Of a stretch of 38,840 bases of DNA, positions 16,569 through 26,011 are shown piece after piece. Made by a program: the position numbers and the translations under genes. Below the pieces are notes generated by a model, which had not been told where the DNA came from, made no database searches, and was given only the letters and a program-made list of their open reading frames with translations. The DNA comes from Gammaproteobacteria bacterium (GTDB lineage Bacteria > Pseudomonadota > Gammaproteobacteria > Steroidobacterales > GCA-2729495), in assembly GCA_021773815.1 (NCBI GenBank), contig JAJFJS010000118.1:1-38840 (forward strand), given 5' to 3'. Numbering within the stretch: position 1 is the stretch's first letter; every line of letters begins with the position of its first letter.

Positions 16569-16588
16569 CCGCGCGTTTATGGGCGCGG
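16569..16588. terminator. Small GC hairpin between convergent peroxiredoxin and carrier genes
   Basis: CCGCGC (16569-16574) pairs with GCGCGG (16583-16588) around an 8-nt loop. It overlaps the stop codon of the minus-strand carrier gene and lacks a T-run. A weak candidate for a shared terminator. Confidence 0.3.
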
Positions 16589-17908
16589 CAACGGGCTCAC
16601 CGGCTCGGCGTCCGCGGCCGGTTGCGGATTTTGCCGATCGAACATGCGGCCCAACATGCGGCCGGTCCAGGCCCAGACACCGGCGATCACCGATCCGACG
16701 ACGGCAACGGCGGCCAGCCCGAATCCCAGCCCATCCGTCAGCCCCGCGAACGCGAGACTGCTCAATGCGTCACCGCCGCGGTATACGACGATGTCGATGA
16801 CCGGCTTGGCCTTGAAACGCGTTTCGCGATCGACCGCCGTGAACAGCATTTCCCGCGCCGGGCGCGTAATCGCATAGTTGCCCGCTCGTCGCCCGACCTG
16901 GAACGCGAGCAACACCGTCAGGATCGGCGCGAACGCCAGGATCAGCAGGCCCGCGGCAACGAATACGGGAACCATGACCAGCGTCGCCGTCATTCCGAAG
17001 CGCTTGACGATGCGGCCCGTTGCGAACATACCGATCGCGAATGTCAGGCAGTTCACGGTGAAATCGACGCCACCGAGGATCTGCGTGCGGGTCTCGCGAT
17101 CGAATTCAGCCAGCAGATTCTTCTGCTCGAAATAGGCGAATGAACCGATCGATGTATACAGCAGGATGAATGCGCCGATCGCCAGCAGGTACGGGTTCGA
17201 GAAGAACATTTTGAAGCCGGCAAACGGGTTGCCGCCGATCCGGGCGGCGCTGAGATCCGCATGCACGTCTTCGTTGTGCAGGTCGATCATCTTGAGCCGC
17301 TCGAGCCAGAGCACGATCGGGATAATGGTGATCAGTGCAACCGACGCGATCAGCAGCAGGGTATCGGTGCTGATCGCACCGGCGAGCAGCGTCGGCACCA
17401 GCGGGCCGATCAGCGCCCCGGCACTGGCACCGACGGCGATGAAAGCGAACAATCGGCCGGCCTGCTCCTTGTTGAACAGATCCGACATGAAGCTCCAGAA
17501 AACCGAAATATGAAAGAGGCTGAAAATACTGACCCAGACATAGAACGTCTTGTCGATCAGTGTCCGATTCTCCAACAGCCCGACGCCGAAGTAGAAAGCC
17601 ACGAAACTAATCGCAAAAAAAGCATACATGCCCGGCACGAGAATCCGGAACCGGACTTTCGATATCGCCAGCCCGTAAAACGCGACGACGACAATGCTGA
17701 TAAAGAAGTTCAGGTTCCATAACAGACTGACTTCCGTGTCGGTCCAGTCGCTGGCCATCGCGTCGCGCACGGGGCGCAGGATGTAATAAGCCGCCATCAA
17801 TATGAAGACGAGCAGGAATGACAACAGGACCGACTTGATCTCGCCAGGTTCGATTCTCGACGCCGACTTCATCATCCTTGCAAGCAAACCGGGGTTGTTG
17901 GTATTCAT
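16577..17908 (-). CDS. ATP/ADP-translocase-like MFS membrane carrier
   Basis: A polytopic inner-membrane protein of 443 aa with about twelve hydrophobic segments, distantly related to the nucleotide (ATP:ADP) translocase family within the major facilitator fold. The N-terminal AAYYILRPVRDAMASDW (39-55) is the hallmark of the free-living branch annotated as NTP/NDP antiporter-like or simply MFS. The mid-protein SDLFNKEQAGRLFAFIAVGASAGALIGP resembles the same group. In Rickettsia and chlamydiae homologues import host ATP. A free-living bacterium has no such use, so the substrate here is unknown. It ends convergent to the peroxiredoxin and starts 4 nt after the SDR stop, so it is probably co-transcribed with that gene. 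Confidence 0.8.
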   Translation of the reverse strand: MNTNNPGLLARMMKSASRIEPGEIKSVLLSFLLVFILMAAYYILRPVRDAMASDWTDTEVSLLWNLNFFISIVVVAFYGLAISKVRFRILVPGMYAFFAISFVAFYFGVGLLENRTLIDKTFYVWVSIFSLFHISVFWSFMSDLFNKEQAGRLFAFIAVGASAGALIGPLVPTLLAGAISTDTLLLIASVALITIIPIVLWLERLKMIDLHNEDVHADLSAARIGGNPFAGFKMFFSNPYLLAIGAFILLYTSIGSFAYFEQKNLLAEFDRETRTQILGGVDFTVNCLTFAIGMFATGRIVKRFGMTATLVMVPVFVAAGLLILAFAPILTVLLAFQVGRRAGNYAITRPAREMLFTAVDRETRFKAKPVIDIVVYRGGDALSSLAFAGLTDGLGFGLAAVAVVGSVIAGVWAWTGRMLGRMFDRQNPQPAADAEPVSPLPRP

Positions 17909-17912
17909 CGCG

Positions 17913-18704
17913 TTATTCCGCCGGCACCCCCGACGATGCCTGGTCCTCCGCGAGGGCGCCGAACGCCGCCGTGAGATCCTGCGCGGCCGCCGACTTGCCG
18001 CTGTTGACTTCGAACGTCTTGTTCAATGCCGCCGGCGTGCCGAGCGCCGCGACACAGACACGGGCAACATCGGCCCGCGGAATCGCCCCGGTGCCCTCAT
18101 CGCCCTGGGCGAACACAACCGCTTTCTTGCCGCCCTCATCGTTGATCAATCCTCCGGGGCGCACGATCGTGTACGGTACGCCACTGGACCGCAGCGCCTC
18201 CTCGCCCCGGAATTTCCACTGCAGGACGTTATCGAACATCTTGTTGAGAATATGGTCTTCGTGCGTGACGCCCATCGATGACACGAGCACGAACTGACGC
18301 AGCCCGGCGTTGGCAGCCGCCTCGGCCATGTTCTTCACGCCACCGTAATCCACGAACTCCGGCCCGTTGGCCGGATCGCCGCGACCCGAGCCGATCGCCG
18401 AAATCATCGCATCGACACCGTCGAGGGCCGCATCGATCGTCGCGCGATCGCGCACGTCGCCGACCGCGTATTCGACATTGTCACCAAACTCCTCGCGTGC
18501 CTTGTCCGCATCCCTGACGAATGCGCGCACACGGTAACCGTCCGCCCGCAACCGGCCGACGATCTCGTGCCCTGTGCCGCCAGTGGCGCCCGCGACGAGC
18601 ACGAGTTCACTGCCCGCCGGAGAGTCAGCAGCCGCGATGCCGACCGCGAACGCGGCCAACAGGATAAACCGACGGCTGAATCTTGCTCTTGTGGTCGTGT
18701 GCAT
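17913..18704 (-). CDS. NAD(P)-binding atypical SDR (NmrA-like) with N-terminal Tat-like signal
   Basis: The body is a Rossmann fold of the atypical short-chain dehydrogenase group. The nucleotide loop is GATGGTG (39-45), and VSSMGV and YTIVRPGGL appear in the usual places. No classical Tyr-x-x-x-Lys pair is obvious, as is common in this group. Residues 1-30 look like an export signal, with FSRRFILLAAFAVGIAAA carrying a twin arginine. Export of a folded cofactor-bound protein would fit Tat. It is 263 aa. AGGAAG lies 8 nt before the ATG. The carrier gene follows within 4 nt. The substrate is unknown. Confidence 0.82.
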   Translation of the reverse strand: MHTTTRARFSRRFILLAAFAVGIAAADSPAGSELVLVAGATGGTGHEIVGRLRADGYRVRAFVRDADKAREEFGDNVEYAVGDVRDRATIDAALDGVDAMISAIGSGRGDPANGPEFVDYGGVKNMAEAAANAGLRQFVLVSSMGVTHEDHILNKMFDNVLQWKFRGEEALRSSGVPYTIVRPGGLINDEGGKKAVVFAQGDEGTGAIPRADVARVCVAALGTPAALNKTFEVNSGKSAAAQDLTAAFGALAEDQASSGVPAE

Positions 18705-18874: not shown

Positions 18875-20308
18875 TCACAGGCCGGTCACGGGCAGGATGC
18901 GCATCTCGTTGGTGCCACCGGTCAGCCCGCGCCGCGAACCCTTGGTAAAGATGACGAGGTCGCCGGGTTGCACGTGGTGCTGGTCGATCAGTAACTGGCA
19001 GACATCCCGGAAAATCGGCTCGGTATGCTCGTGCACGTTCTCATAAGCCACCGGATAGACGCCGCGGTACAGAGATATACGCCGGCGCGTGCTCTCGTGG
19101 TTCGTGAAGGCGAAGATCGGGATATCCGATCGAATGCGCGACATCCACAAGGCCGTCGTGCCCGATTCGGTCAGCGCGATGATGGCCTCGACATCCAGAT
19201 GGTTCGCGGCATACATCACGGACATCGCGATCGCCTCGTCGACGGCGCCGAACCGGTCGTCCATGCGGTGCCGGCTCATGCGCGAGGCGCTCTGGTGATA
19301 CGTCTCGGCACCGATGCAGACTTCGGCCATCGCCGCCACGGCCTTCACCGGATATTCACCGACCGCCGTCTCCGCCGACAGCATGACCGCATCGGTACCG
19401 TCCATGACGGCATTGGCGACGTCGGAGACCTCGGCGCGCGTCGGCAACTGACTGTGAATCATCGACTCCATCATTTGTGTCGCCGTGATACACACGGTGT
19501 GCCGCCGACGCGCCAGCTTGATGATCGTCTTCTGCATACCGGCAAGTCCGGCGAATCCCATCTCGACGCCGAGATCGCCACGCGCGACCATGACGCCGTC
19601 GCTGGCGTCGATAATCGCCTCCAGATTCCCCATGGCCTCGGCGCGCTCGATCTTGGCGATAATATGCCCGGTACCGCCGGCGTCCTCGAGCACCTGCCGC
19701 GCACGGTGGATGTCGTCGGCGTCGCGCACGAAGGACACGGCAATCCAATCGACGCCGGCTGCTGCCGCCCGGCGCAAATCGTCGAGATCCTTGTCGGACA
19801 GCGCCGGAGCCGACATCCCGCCACCCTGACGATTGATGCCTTTCTTGTCGCTGAGCGTGCCGCCGACCGTGACGCGGCAGTTGATTCGCGTACCGCTGAC
19901 CGACTCCACGACCATCGCGATCTGCCCGTCATCGAGCAGCAGGACATCACCGGCAGCGACGTCCCGCACGAGCTGTTCGTAGGCGACACCGACCTCATCG
20001 ATCGTACCGGCCTCCGGGTCGAGCGCGCTGTCGAGCGCGAACGACTGCCCCTCCGTCAGGCGCACGTAACCGTCGCGAAAACGGTTGATGCGAATCTTCG
20101 GCCCCTGCAGGTCACCGATAATGCCGATGTGCCGGCCGCAGCGTTTCGCCACCGCATGCACCCTGTCAATCTGACGCTGATGATCATCCCAGGTGCCGTG
20201 GGAAAAATTCAGCCGAACGACGTCGACGCCGGCCTTGAAGAGTTTCTCCAACTGCTCCGGCGATTCGCTCGCCGGGCCCAGTGTCGCAATAATCTTGGTT
20301 CGTCGCAT
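18875..20308 (-). CDS. pyk: Pyruvate kinase (PykA-like)
   Basis: Pyruvate kinase converts PEP and ADP to pyruvate and ATP. TKIIATLGPAS begins the barrel; the metal/PEP site is VMVARGDLGVEMG, and ITATQMMESMI and SDVANAVMDGTDAVMLSAETAVG follow. It is 477 aa and resembles E. coli PykA more than PykF along its length. At residue 71 (GDLQGPKIR) a lysine stands where K+-dependent enzymes have glutamate, which in this family marks K+-independent catalysis. The ATG at 20308 starts directly at the conserved MRRTKIIATLGP; a TTG at 20326 would add six residues. It is the last gene of the operon. Confidence 0.96.
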   Translation of the reverse strand: MRRTKIIATLGPASESPEQLEKLFKAGVDVVRLNFSHGTWDDHQRQIDRVHAVAKRCGRHIGIIGDLQGPKIRINRFRDGYVRLTEGQSFALDSALDPEAGTIDEVGVAYEQLVRDVAAGDVLLLDDGQIAMVVESVSGTRINCRVTVGGTLSDKKGINRQGGGMSAPALSDKDLDDLRRAAAAGVDWIAVSFVRDADDIHRARQVLEDAGGTGHIIAKIERAEAMGNLEAIIDASDGVMVARGDLGVEMGFAGLAGMQKTIIKLARRRHTVCITATQMMESMIHSQLPTRAEVSDVANAVMDGTDAVMLSAETAVGEYPVKAVAAMAEVCIGAETYHQSASRMSRHRMDDRFGAVDEAIAMSVMYAANHLDVEAIIALTESGTTALWMSRIRSDIPIFAFTNHESTRRRISLYRGVYPVAYENVHEHTEPIFRDVCQLLIDQHHVQPGDLVIFTKGSRRGLTGGTNEMRILPVTGL

Positions 20309-20335
20309 CGCCGAATTATCCCACAACGCGCGCAG

Positions 20336-21622
20336 TTACACCGGCCCGGTACCGGCGGTCGGATCCGTGACGAGAATGACGCGCAGATCGTTCACGTTCG
20401 TCCGCGTCGGGCCGCTGACCACGAGGTCGCCGAGCGCGGCAAAAAAATCCCAGGCGCGGTGGGCCGCAAGCAGCACCGCCGGATCGATACCCAGGGTCCG
20501 GGCGCGGGCCAGGCTGTCGGGATACAGTCGCGCACCGGCATTGTCCTCGGTACCGTCGATGCCGTCCGTATCCGCGGCAAGCGCATGCACCCCGGCCGCA
20601 CCGTCGGGGGTCAGGGCGAGCGCGAGGGCCAGCAGGTACTCGCTATTGCGCCCGCCCCGACCGCCGGCGCCGGTGACCGCCACCGACGTTTCGCCGCCGG
20701 AAATCAGCGCGACCCGGACCCCGGGTCGTTGATACCGGCGCACGATATCGGCATGCCGCTCGGCAAGCCGATGCGCCGGCTCACCGCCGGCGGCACCGAG
20801 CAACACCGGCTCGAACCCGGCGGCCACCGCCGTAGCGGCCGCCGCGGTCATGGCATCGTCGGCGCGTGCAATCACACGCACCGACACGTTCGCAAATGCC
20901 GCGGCATCGTCGGCTGGACCGGTCGGGTCGGCACGCAAGGTCGCCGCGACCGCGGCCGGCACGTCGATGCCGAAGCGCCGCAGGATGTCGCGGGCCTCGG
21001 CGGCGCTGTGCACATCGGGGCTGCACGGACCCGAGCCGATGTCCGCGACGATATCGCCGGGCACGTCCGAGATCGCGAGCACGTGAACGCGCGCGGGCGC
21101 CGCCGCGCGGGCCAGGCCGCCGCCCTTGAGCGCCGACAGTTTCCGGCGCACGCAATTGATCGCCGAGATATCCGCACCGGCCGCCAGCAGTTGTCGATTG
21201 ACCGATTGCAGGTCGCTGAGCGTCAACCCGGGCAGCGGCACCTCCAGCAACGCCGACGCGCCGCCGGACAGCAACACGAACAGCAGGTCGTCGGCAGCGA
21301 GACCCTCGGCAAGCGCCAGGATCCGGCGACCCGCAGCCCAACCGGCAGCATCGGGCACCGGGTGGGCCGCCTCGATCACGTCGATGTCGCCGACCCGCGG
21401 CCGCCCGACGCCGTGCCCGTAACGGGTCACGACACATCCGGTCAGAACATCGGGCCACGCGGCAACCAGCGCTTCGGCCATGCTCGCGGCGGCCTTGCCG
21501 GCGCCGACGACATGGCCGGGACGACCGGTCGGGACGGGCAGATGCGGCGCGAGACAACGCGCGGGGGAAGCGGCCGCCACGGCCGCGGCAAAACAGGCGT
21601 CAAGCAGGTCCTGCTGGCGCAC
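20336..21622 (-). CDS. Glycerate 2-kinase (DUF4147/MOFRL family)
   Basis: This type II glycerate kinase phosphorylates D-glycerate with ATP, to 2-phosphoglycerate in characterised members. The N-terminal domain has [13 protein letters not shown] and [19 protein letters not shown]. The C-terminal MOFRL domain has [18 protein letters not shown] and [12 protein letters not shown]. The start must lie near the pgk end. The GTG at 21622 gives 428 aa, the family's length, and overlaps pgk by 23 nt. Sitting between pgk and pyk, it feeds glycerate into lower glycolysis. The gene is often called gckA, garK2 or ttuD; which pathway supplies glycerate is not visible here. Confidence 0.9.
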
Positions 21623-22799
21623 CGGCCCGCTGCTCCAGCACAGCGACGGCCGGCAGCGTCTTGCCTTCCAGGAATTCAAGAAACGCACCGCCGCCGGTCG
21701 ATATATAGGAGACACGGTCGGTCACGCCGTATTTCTCCAGCGCCGCCAGCGTATCGCCGCCACCGGCGATGCTGAACGCCGGACTCGCCGCGACCGCCTG
21801 CGCGAGACGTTCGGTACCGGCGCCGAACTGATCGATTTCGAAAACGCCGACGGGACCGTTCCAGACGATCGTACCGGCCGTGGCCAGCAATTCCGCATAC
21901 AGGTCCGCCGTCTGCGGGCCGATATCCAGGATCAGTTCATCGGGCGCCACGGCATCGACCGGACGAACCTGGGACGGAGCCGATTCGCTGATCTCGATGG
22001 CCACGACGACATCCCGCGGCAACGGAATTATCGCCCGCCCGTCGCCGCCGGCCGCGAGCCGCGCCGCCTCGTCGACGAGGTCAGCCTCGTACAGGGACTC
22101 ACCGACCGGGTATCCGGCTGCGGCAATGAAGGTATTGGCGATGCCACCGCCAACGATCAACTGGTCGACGATTGTCGACAGCGATTCGAGCACCATCAGC
22201 TTGGTCGAGACCTTCGACCCGCCGACGATGGCCACGACAGGTCGCGCCGGGTCGAGCAGAGCCTGACCGAGCGCTTCAAGTTCGCCGATGAGCAGCGGAC
22301 CGGCGCAGGCCACCGGCGCAAAACGGGCCACGCCATGCGTGCTGGCTTGCGCCCGGTGGGCGGTACCAAATGCATCCATGACGAACACATCACAGAGTGC
22401 GGCCATCCGCCGCGCCAGCGATTCGTCATTAGCCTTCTCGCCCGCGTTGAAGCGCACGTTCTCGCACAACACGACGTCGCCCGGCGCGACGTCGATGCCG
22501 TCGAGCCAGTCGGCGGCCAGGCGCACGGGCCGTTCGAGCAGCCCGCCCAGATGGTCCGCCACCGGCTGCAGCGAGAACTTCGGGTCGTATTCACCCTCGA
22601 CCGGGCGGCCCAGATGCGACAACAGAATCACGGCTGCGCCGCGCTCCAGCGCAAGACGAATCGTCGGCAGCGTCGCGCGGATACGCGTGTCGCTGGTCAC
22701 GACGCCGTTCTGCAACGGCACGTTCAGGTCGAGCCGGATCATGACGCGCTGGCCGGCCAGCTCCTGGTCGGACATCCGCAACACATTCAAGCCCGGCAT
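21600..22799 (-). CDS. pgk: Phosphoglycerate kinase
   Basis: Pgk interconverts 1,3-bisphosphoglycerate/ADP and 3-phosphoglycerate/ATP, used in glycolysis, gluconeogenesis and the Calvin cycle. The N-terminal domain has RLDLNVP (22-28) and SHLGRP (61-66). The nucleotide-binding C-terminal domain has VGGSKVSTK and [13 protein letters not shown]. It is 399 aa. It starts 11 nt after the gap stop and overlaps the glycerate kinase start, so the operon is tightly coupled. Confidence 0.98.
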
Positions 22800-22810
22800 G
22801 AAAACTTCCG

Positions 22811-23830
22811 TCAGCCGGCGTTAACGAGCGCCAGCGTCGTATCGAGCATCCGGTTGGAGAAGCCCCACTCGTTGTCGTACCAGGCGCACACCTTGACGAG
22901 ATCGCCGCCCATGACTTTGGTCATCGTCGCATCGAACGTCGACGAATCCGGGTTGTGGTTAAAGTCGACCGACACCAACGGGCCGTCGTTATAGCCGAGC
23001 ACCGCGCCGAGCGAGTCGTTGCCGGCGGCTGCGGCGCGCATGATGTCGTTGATCTCCTCGACCGACGTGTCACGGGACGCTGTGAAGGTCAGGTCGACGA
23101 GCGACACGTTGATCGTCGGCACGCGAACCGAAAAACCGTCGAGCTTGCCGTTGAGTTCCGGCAGCACGAGTCCGACGGCTGCGGCGGCGCCGGTCTTGGT
23201 CGGGATCATCGAATGGGTCGCGGAACGCGCGCGGCGCAGATCCTTGTGATACACATCCGTCAGCACCTGGTCGTTCGTGTAGGCATGAATCGTATTCATG
23301 ATGCCCTTCTCGACGCCGACCTTCTCATGCAGCGGTTTGATGAGCGGCGCGAGGCAATTGGTCGTGCACGACGCATTCGAAATGATCCGGTCGGTGGCCT
23401 TGAGGACACCCTCGTTGACGCCGTAGACAATCGTCGCATCGATATCGGTTCCGGCCGGCGCCGAGATCACGACTTTCTTCGCGCCCGCCTCAAGGTGTGC
23501 GGCCGCCTTCGTCTTGTTGGCAAAAAATCCCGTGCACTCGAAAACAACATCGACGCCGAGTTCACTCCACGGCAATTCGGCCGGGTTACGCTCGGCAAGC
23601 ACGCGGATGCGGTCGCCATTGACAACCATGTCACCGCCGTCGACCGCCACCGTGCCCGAAAACGGCCCATGCGTGGTGTCGAAACGCGTCAGGTGCGCAT
23701 TCGTCTCGGCGTCACCGAGGTCGTTGATCGCGACGATCTGCAGTTCGTCGGTCCGGTTGGACTCATACAATGCCCGCAGGACGTTGCGCCCGATGCGGCC
23801 GTAACCATTGATCGCAATTTTTACTGACAT
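22811..23830 (-). CDS. gap: Glyceraldehyde-3-phosphate dehydrogenase, type I
   Basis: This enzyme oxidises glyceraldehyde 3-phosphate with phosphate and NAD(P)+. The Rossmann loop is NGYGRIGRN (8-16), the catalytic cysteine C155 lies in SNASCTTNC (151-159), and [12 protein letters not shown] closes the catalytic domain. An aspartate in INDLGD (36-37 region) favours NAD+ over NADP+, by family knowledge. It is 339 aa. The ATG at 23830 shares a base with the tkt stop (TGATG). The frame is open upstream, but that is transketolase read in another frame. Confidence 0.97.
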
Positions 23831-25860
23831 CAATCTTTCTCCAAAAGGCGCAACGCCTGCGCCACGATATTTTCCGGCGTAAATCCGAAATGCTCGAACA
23901 ATTCCCCGGCCGGTGCGGACTCGCCGAACCGGTCGAGGCCGATAACCTGCCCCTGCAGACCGACAAATCGGTACCAGAGACCCGTCGCGCCCGCCTCGAT
24001 GGCAATCCGCCGGTCGACCGCGGCCGGCAGTACGGATTCGCGCCACGCTTCGTCCTGAGCGAGGAACGCGGCGGCGCACGGCATCGACACGACCCGTACC
24101 CGGCGTCCGGCGCCGGCCAGCGCGGCCGCCGCGGCCATGGCCGGCGCGACTTCCGAACCCGTCGCAATCAGGATCAATTCCGGATCGTCGACCTCGTGCA
24201 ACACGTAACCGCCGCGCCGAATCGAGGCCAGTTGCGCCTCGGTGCGCGGTTGATGCGGGAGATTCTGCCGCGACAGAACCAGGCTCGTCGGGCCGGTGTC
24301 GGTTTCGAGCGCGTCGCGCCAGGCCACGGCGGTTTCGACCGCGTCGCACGGTCGCCAGACGCGCATGTTGGGCACGAGTTGCAGGCTCGCGACCTGTTCG
24401 ATCGGCTGATGGGTCGGCCCGTCCTCGCCGAGGCCGATCGAGTCGTGCGTAAACACGTGCACGACGCGAATACCCATCAGCGCGGCCATGCGCAGCGCGT
24501 TGCGCGAGTAATCGGAAAAGGTCAGGAACGTGCCGCCGTACGGAATACTGCCACCGTGCAGGGCGAGGCCGTTCATGATCGCCGCCATCGCAAATTCACG
24601 GACACCGTACGACACGTAGTTGCCGCCCGCGTCGGCGCCGGAAATCAGGCGCGACCCGGCGTGATGCGTCAGGTTCGAGCCCGTCAGGTCGGCCGACCCG
24701 CCGAGCAGTTCGGGCAGGGCCGGCGCGAACGCATTCAATGCGATCAGCGACGCCTTGCGCGTCGCCACCGTCTCGCCCGCGGCCGCAATACCGGCCACCG
24801 CGTCGTCGGCGAATGTCGTCCAGTTATCCGGCAGCGTGCCGGCGTTGCGCCGCTCGAATTCGGCGGCCAGATCGGGGTATTCGGCCGCATACGCGGCGTA
24901 GCGTTGCCGCCACTGCTGCTCGGCCGCCTGGCCGGCATCGGTTGCATCCCATGACTCGGCGATGGCCGCGGGAATGACGAACGGCGGCGCATCCCAGTCG
25001 AGCGCTTTGCGCGCTGCGGCGATCTCGTCGTCGCCGAGCGGTGCACCATGCGTGGCTTCGCTGCCCTGCTTGTTCGGCGCGCCGAAGCCGATGATGGTCT
25101 TGCAGCAGATCAGCGACGGTCGGTCGGCGGTCGCGCGGGCCGCTTCGATCGCGGCCCGGACGGCGTCCGGGTCATGCCCGTCGACGTCGGCGATGACGTG
25201 CCAGCCGTAGGCCCGGAAACGGGCCGGCGTGTCGTCGGTGAACCAGCCCGCGACATCGCCATCGATCGAGATGCCGTTGTCGTCGTACAGGCAGATCAGT
25301 TTGCCAAGTTGCCAGGTTCCGGCCAGCGAGCAGGCCTCGTGCGAGATACCCTCCATCAGGCAGCCGTCGCCGAGAAATACATAAGTGTAGTGATCGACGA
25401 TCTCATGGCCGGACCGGTTGAACTCGGCAGCCAGGCGCTTCTCGGCCAGCGCCATGCCAACGGCGTTCGTGATGCCCTGCCCGAGCGGTCCGGTCGTCGT
25501 TTCGATGCCGATCTGCGGATCGTATTCGGGATGGCCAGCGGTCCGCGAGCCAAACTGGCGGAAGGCGCGCAGATCGTCCATCGTCAGCGGATAGCCGGAC
25601 AGATGCAGCAGGCCGTAGAGCAGCATCGAACCGTGACCGTTCGACAACACGAAGCGATCGCGATCCGGCCAGGCCGGATTGGCCGGATTGTGGCGGAGGA
25701 AATCATTCCACAGCACTTCGGCGATGTCGGCCATCCCCATCGGCATGCCGGGATGGCCCGACCGGGCTTGCTGCACCGCGTCCATCGCCAGAACCCGCAG
25801 GGCGTCCGCCCGCTTCCGGCGGGAAGACGGCGCGATCGAATTAACGGGATTCGTAGCCAT
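23830..25860 (-). CDS. tkt: Transketolase
   Basis: Transketolase moves two-carbon units between sugar phosphates with thiamine diphosphate, in the pentose phosphate and Calvin cycles. The N-terminal [21 protein letters not shown] is typical. The ThDP motif starts GDG (164-166) and ends at N195. The pyrimidine domain has SADLTGSN and [13 protein letters not shown]. It is 676 aa, near the usual 665. I chose the ATG at 25860; the frame stays open to 25962 but the extra residues look unlike transketolase. It heads tkt-gap-pgk-gck-pyk, with a good promoter 26 nt before the start. Confidence 0.97.
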
Positions 25861-25892
25861 GACGTCGGGGTTGTTCTCGTTTTGGGGCGCGC

Positions 25893-25921
25893 ATTGTCGC
25901 GTACTCGCTGGTGGCTGGCAA
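25893..25921 (-). promoter_or_regulatory. Candidate sigma70 promoter for the tkt operon
   Basis: On the minus strand TTGCCA (25921-25916, 5/6) and GACAAT (25898-25893, 4/6) are exactly 17 bp apart. Transcription would start near 25886, 26 nt before the tkt ATG. The position also supports the ATG at 25860 over longer versions. Confidence 0.55.
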
Positions 25922-26011
25922 TAAGGGGCTGCCGCGGCGGTGCACGGATTATGTCTGGCCATCCCGGGGATGCCGAACGGCTGGGGCAGAGCAAATCAAC
26001 TGACGGGCCGC

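Follow-up and report, generated by a model that had tools for sequence, protein, structure and literature searches.

A predicted class II glycerate kinase gene between pgk and pyk in a conserved glycolytic operon of Steroidobacterales

Class II glycerate kinase genes lying next to pyruvate kinase genes are known from Pseudomonas, Methylobacterium extorquens and Agrobacterium vitis (excerpts of PMC2063504 and PMC12694930). The Pseudomonas pair is glxK/pykF (PA1499/PA1498) of the gcl cluster (PMC12694930, PMC2063504, both in excerpt), and the two functions are likewise co-organised in the A. vitis ttu tartrate operon and the M. extorquens gckA region (excerpt of PMC2063504). According to the same excerpt the characterized class II kinases seem specific for 2-phosphoglycerate, and Thermoproteus tenax GarK, of the same class, forms only this product (PMC2063504). 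The locus described here shares the adjacency of the two genes and differs in what surrounds them. In Pseudomonas, pykF encodes a second isozyme and shares a glyoxylate cluster with gcl, hyi and glxR, whereas the pyruvate kinase gene at this locus is part of the conserved tkt-gap-pgk-pyk operon of the order, with no above-cutoff gcl and no tartronate-semialdehyde reductase (TSR) found. The M. extorquens gckA gene lies among serine-cycle genes. The A. vitis genes are within tartrate utilization clusters (PMC2063504, in excerpt), whereas core glycolysis genes flank the kinase here. Thermotoga maritima TM1585 (structure 2b8n) matches our kinase over nearly the whole length; it and the T. tenax enzyme differ from the window kinase in genomic context and organism, and the window protein is known from sequence alone. 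A literature search, mostly without full texts, found no description of a kinase inside a tkt-gap-pgk-pyk operon. The enzyme itself is ordinary and well known; the gene order and the repeated gain or loss of the kinase are a modest novelty.

The window, that is, the whole analysed stretch of 38,840 nucleotides, carries the genes in the order tkt-gap-pgk-GK-pyk on its minus strand, with an SDR gene and then an MFS-type gene beyond pyk:

23830..25962, minus strand: tkt, transketolase (TIGR00232 above cutoff)
22811..23818, minus strand: gap, type I glyceraldehyde-3-phosphate dehydrogenase (TIGR01534 above cutoff)
21600..22799, minus strand: pgk, phosphoglycerate kinase (Pfam PGK, 456 bits, 9.3e-137)
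21600..21622, minus strand: overlap of the pgk 3' end and the GK 5' end, 23 nt (read from the sequence)
20336..21622, minus strand: GK, predicted class II (MOFRL) glycerate kinase, 428 aa, GTG at 21622 to TAA at 20336 (Pfam DUF4147 and MOFRL; closest structures 2b8n and 1x3l)
20315..20323, minus strand: extended -10-like motif TGnRATAAT, predicted promoter element, 6 nt before the pyk ATG and 12 nt past the GK stop
18875..20308, minus strand: pyk, pyruvate kinase (TIGR01064, 553 bits, 5.7e-166, scanned from an upstream TTG at 20326)
17913..18704, minus strand: SDR-type NAD(P)-binding protein downstream of pyk (Pfam NAD_binding_10); homologue behind pyk in several relatives
16577..17908, minus strand: MFS/ATP-ADP-transporter-like membrane protein (Pfam MFS_1 above cutoff, TLC weaker); homologue behind pyk in many relatives

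An earlier note on this DNA had placed a GTG start of the kinase inside pgk with a 23-nt overlap, which is exact (21622-21600), and had set the kinase within a tkt-gap-pgk-pyk block with pyk next, which profile matches for all five genes bear out. Its interval 20336-22799 covers pgk and GK jointly; GK by itself occupies 20336-21622. A similar pgk/GK overlap is readable in G194 of the same genus. The pyk ATG at 20308 is the conserved start and aligns with the starts in the family. The further claim that related operons continue with fba found no support: there was no aldolase among 10 proteins scanned near the 3' side of pyk in relatives (drawn from 22 loci; one of the ten, not the gene nearest to pyk, gave no Pfam match). 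Of 17 loci in the window's own family (f1), 16 have an SDR and/or MFS homologue behind pyk.

The DUF4147 (252 bits) and MOFRL (111 bits) matches of GK both exceed the gathering scores and together cover nearly the full length, and the best solved structures are 2b8n (putative glycerate kinase, E 1.4e-59) and then 1x3l. The only NCBIfam models matched, the glycerate 2-kinase equivalogs NF041176 and NF040791, score below their cutoffs (182 vs 550 and 124 vs 670); we read their names as pointing to archaeal groups (Thermoproteota and Thermoplasmata). Among 41 aligned kinases, from which L071 and L072 had been left out as too divergent, N156, R159, D186, E311, D351, D353, D356, N409 and D412 are among the residues that never vary; the kinases compared include some whose neighbors are TSR, tartrate-dehydrogenase, glucosylglycerate-hydrolase-like or hydroxypyruvate-reductase-like genes. 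The counterparts of GK K43 and R325 in the 2b8n chain are K59 and R337; we take these to be native K47 and R325, active-site residues. Position 325 is R in 33 of the 41 kinases and P in eight; the eight with proline in place of this GGRN-loop arginine are the four glucosylglycerate-linked kinases, L068 and three f2 kinases. The operon copies are under purifying selection (dN/dS ~0.12-0.20; six pairs, two triplets of close relatives). The genome (3.87 Mb, 149 contigs, 98.95% complete) holds a single MOFRL match, and the class I kinase family PF02595 has no match in it.

The genes beside related kinases elsewhere in the order also bear on function. In family f11, a kinase 57% identical to GK abuts a TSR gene (L037; score above cutoff), which lies directly upstream. 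Two kinases stand beside a D-2-hydroxyacid dehydrogenase gene, identified by scanning in L041 and by a dehydrogenase-query match in L039; near both, succinyl-CoA-ligase-like genes were recognised by eye. Further neighbors are a tartrate dehydrogenase (L046, above cutoff), a glucosylglycerate-hydrolase-like gene (L060; 352 bits, cutoff 550) and a guanine deaminase (L042, above cutoff), the last in surroundings that look by eye like purine-catabolism clusters. These contexts point to glycerate as the substrate. GK is probably an ATP-dependent D-glycerate 2-kinase of the GckA/TtuD type; on homology and the contexts of its relatives, 2-phosphoglycerate is the most likely product made from D-glycerate. 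The class II identity given in the earlier note, with glycerate entering at 2-phosphoglycerate, is supported by the same two lines of evidence. We note that such contexts are useful for annotating MOFRL proteins labelled hydroxypyruvate reductase.

A kinase match is present in 87 of the 196 genomes of the order. In at least 18 of these carriers the kinase adjoins pgk (7/8 in family f1, which has 40 genomes, and 11/11 in family f6), a comparison that leaves out the carriers G013, G051 and G142. The gene directly behind the kinase is pyk in 17 of the 18; the remaining case, G104, is linked to pgk by coordinates only. For comparison we fetched 40 loci of 39 other carriers, plus G083. Since the pgk-GK-pyk slot is occupied in six further f1 genomes and in 10 fetched f6 genomes, the position of the kinase is not due to chance. 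In all 17 operons the kinase runs in the operon direction and overlaps pgk or lies within ~210 nt of it, its immediate neighbors are pgk and pyk, and in none does a glycerate-producing enzyme stand there. In the other carriers the kinase and pgk are far apart or on separate contigs; in draft assemblies the latter does not strictly exclude adjacency, especially for fragments at contig ends. A class I kinase is no general replacement in relatives that lack GK, because PF02595 occurs in just three of the 196 genomes, none of them a kinase carrier.

The order tkt-gap-pgk-pyk is kept in all 18 loci without a kinase in the slot (12 families). Within the order this block is the ancestral arrangement, and GK, which sits in the gap between pgk and pyk, is accessory and does not supply a step that glycolysis requires. 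For the 17 f1 loci that have no slot kinase (16 genomes with no match, plus G159 with a divergent kinase elsewhere) the pgk-to-pyk spacing is -8 to 165 nt in 16 and 2128 nt in G150. Within the window's own genus the kinase is found in G000 and G194 and is absent from G168 and G171, whose pgk-pyk is intact; these two assemblies are 80% and 78% complete, but the sequence across the pgk-pyk junction was inspected directly in both. A tree of pgk+pyk from 52 loci nests G168 and G171 beside G000, and on the same tree the kinase-in-slot trait takes at least seven changes overall and at least five within f1 (24 loci). A search for kinase relics in the pgk-pyk gaps of the 17 f1 loci gave chance-level matches only (best E 0.13). 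A peripheral salvage enzyme thus comes and goes inside a core glycolytic operon otherwise fixed in order across the 18 loci and 12 families, which corrects the view that such operons form a single, invariable pathway unit. Other genes also occur in this gap: antisense ORFs, DUF839/PhoX-like by eye, in G109 and G195 of family f7 (L145:7195-8856, L159:4599-5966), and two ORFs of no assigned function in G150 (L102:5069-6950).

A kinase tree of 43 rows separates the operon copies of f1 (7 rows, 87/98) from those of f6 (10 rows, 100/99), and the latter group with four f7 kinases from operons with glucosylglycerate-hydrolase-like genes (99/94). A tree constrained to unite every operon copy is marginally rejected (AU p 0.033), and the operon copies plus those four f7 kinases fall, weakly (56/86), on one side of a branch. 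Two captures, or a single capture followed by relocation in f7, are both possible. We tentatively entertain, at rather less than even likelihood, that the slot was filled twice independently by different kinase branches, one in f1 and one in f6 related to glucosylglycerate-utilization kinases. If true, selection repeatedly puts the 2-phosphoglycerate entry step among lower-glycolysis genes.

Translation of GK is probably coupled to that of pgk, on a tkt-gap-pgk transcript whose structure is predicted. The motif TGnRATAAT was present within 100 nt before pyk in 7/7 kinase-bearing f1 loci and 5/17 other f1 loci, in 0/10 kinase-bearing f6 loci and in 3/18 other loci. Counted on both strands of the full set of compared sequences, it occurs 22 times in 1,347,718 positions (0.0016 per 100 nt), and 15 of those 22 are the pre-pyk sites themselves. 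The contrast within f1 has a hypergeometric value of 0.0023, which ignores relatedness, and the motif was noticed in the data before it was counted. In all four genomes of the genus it lies 6 nt before the pyk ATG, a distance that would fit a leaderless pyk message. A two-hexamer sigma-70 scan of the operon gave two sites vs 1.1 in shuffles and none before pyk, so the extended -10 motif is a separate observation. With this conserved promoter-like element separating GK from pyk, the latter may be transcribed apart from GK in f1, via a putative promoter. The earlier note had proposed a glycerate-to-pyruvate path under glycolytic control. Entry at 2-phosphoglycerate holds up; a single control unit is weakened by the motif before pyk and by the absence of GK from close relatives with an intact glycolytic operon.

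In the mechanism we propose, GK, as an accessory entry point set into a slot of an ancestral housekeeping operon, would salvage D-glycerate to 2-phosphoglycerate for onward use by enolase, pyruvate kinase and PEP carboxylase. Hydroxypyruvate appears the likeliest source of the glycerate, a reading to which we give slightly under an even chance: an AGT-type aminotransferase would convert serine to hydroxypyruvate, and a D-2-hydroxyacid dehydrogenase encoded directly behind ppc would reduce the latter to glycerate. The genome encodes a PRK06487-like D-2-hydroxyacid dehydrogenase (hydroxypyruvate reductase-like, HPR-like; 414.5 bits, cutoff 448), whose gene, at 74364-73381 of contig C127, has its first base in common with the final base of the ppc stop codon (L095:7379-11142), and an AGT/SPT-type aminotransferase-like gene with alanine-glyoxylate aminotransferase 1vjo as its best PDB match, below the NCBIfam cutoffs. 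With both genes present, a path from hydroxypyruvate through glycerate to 2-phosphoglycerate is possible. The hydroxypyruvate/serine origin named in the earlier note is therefore plausible in that homologues are present, and is held back by HPR and aminotransferase scores below the equivalog cutoffs. The ppc-dehydrogenase linkage recurs in all 14 relatives fetched (L128-L141). These were picked from genomes matching the dehydrogenase, and three of them (G168, G147, G015) have no kinase; the genes are adjacent in nine and within ~0.6 kb in five f6 genomes. At E 1e-40 the dehydrogenase query matches 138 of the 196 genomes, many without a kinase; it matches 7/7 f1 operon carriers and none of 6 of the 11 kinase-bearing f6 genomes, and those six need another glycerate source. 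As a dedicated partner of the kinase the HPR-like gene fails on co-occurrence, both in the GK-less genomes that have it and in these six carriers.

An origin from glyoxylate via glyoxylate carboligase and TSR, as in the Pseudomonas gcl-hyi-glxR-glxK-pykF cluster, is one other possible source, and the earlier note had included glycolate and glyoxylate among the sources. The clusters already known to pair a class II kinase with a pyruvate kinase (PMC2063504, PMC12694930, in excerpt) and the TSR gene upstream of the 57%-identical f11 kinase would suit it. The TSR model TIGR01505, however, has no match in this genome at E 1e-3 and none above cutoff in the 40 family genomes, and the glyoxylate carboligase model TIGR01504 has none above cutoff in this genome (best 267 bits vs 711), for which reasons we consider the route very improbable. 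Glycerate might instead come from a compatible solute or by a sugar-acid or tartrate route (glucosylglycerate hydrolase, tartrate dehydrogenase, non-phosphorylating Entner-Doudoroff). The f7 kinases adjoining glucosylglycerate-hydrolase-like and tartrate-dehydrogenase genes speak for this, as does the sister position of the f6 operon kinases to glucosylglycerate-type kinases (99/94); given that no such gene is among the immediate neighbors of the kinase in the window, we rate it as rather unlikely here.

Two other explanations concern the role of the kinase in the operon. It could, together with a 3-phosphoglycerate phosphatase, bypass a missing phosphoglycerate mutase, which would accord with the lack of a GpmI (PF06415) match in all 40 family genomes; PF01676, another phosphoglycerate-mutase-type family, likewise has no match in this genome. 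We rejected this bypass as next to impossible. A full-length GpmA is present in this genome (378 bits, cutoff 82), so the kinase does not replace the mutase, and GpmA has an above-cutoff match in 38/40 family genomes, whereas the kinase is matched in only 8/40. The kinase could also be an incidental passenger in a gap that tolerates insertions, with no functional tie to glycolysis. This is consistent with the other genes seen in the gap of G109, G195 and G150, with the promoter-like motif of pyk itself, and with the at least five changes of state of the slot copy among the 24 f1 loci. We nevertheless find it unlikely, since the operon copies are uniformly oriented and tightly spaced in 17/17 operons of two families and evolve under purifying selection, and the product of the kinase would lie on the path from the pgk reaction to the pyk reaction. 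The accessory entry point for D-glycerate is the reading we prefer.

Putative glucosylglycerate utilization operons were seen at L057, L060, L062 and L067 (proteins scanned in L060 only). They contain a sodium-solute symporter, a glycerate kinase, a glucosylglycerate-hydrolase-like protein, a PfkB kinase and a GlcNAc-epimerase-like gene.
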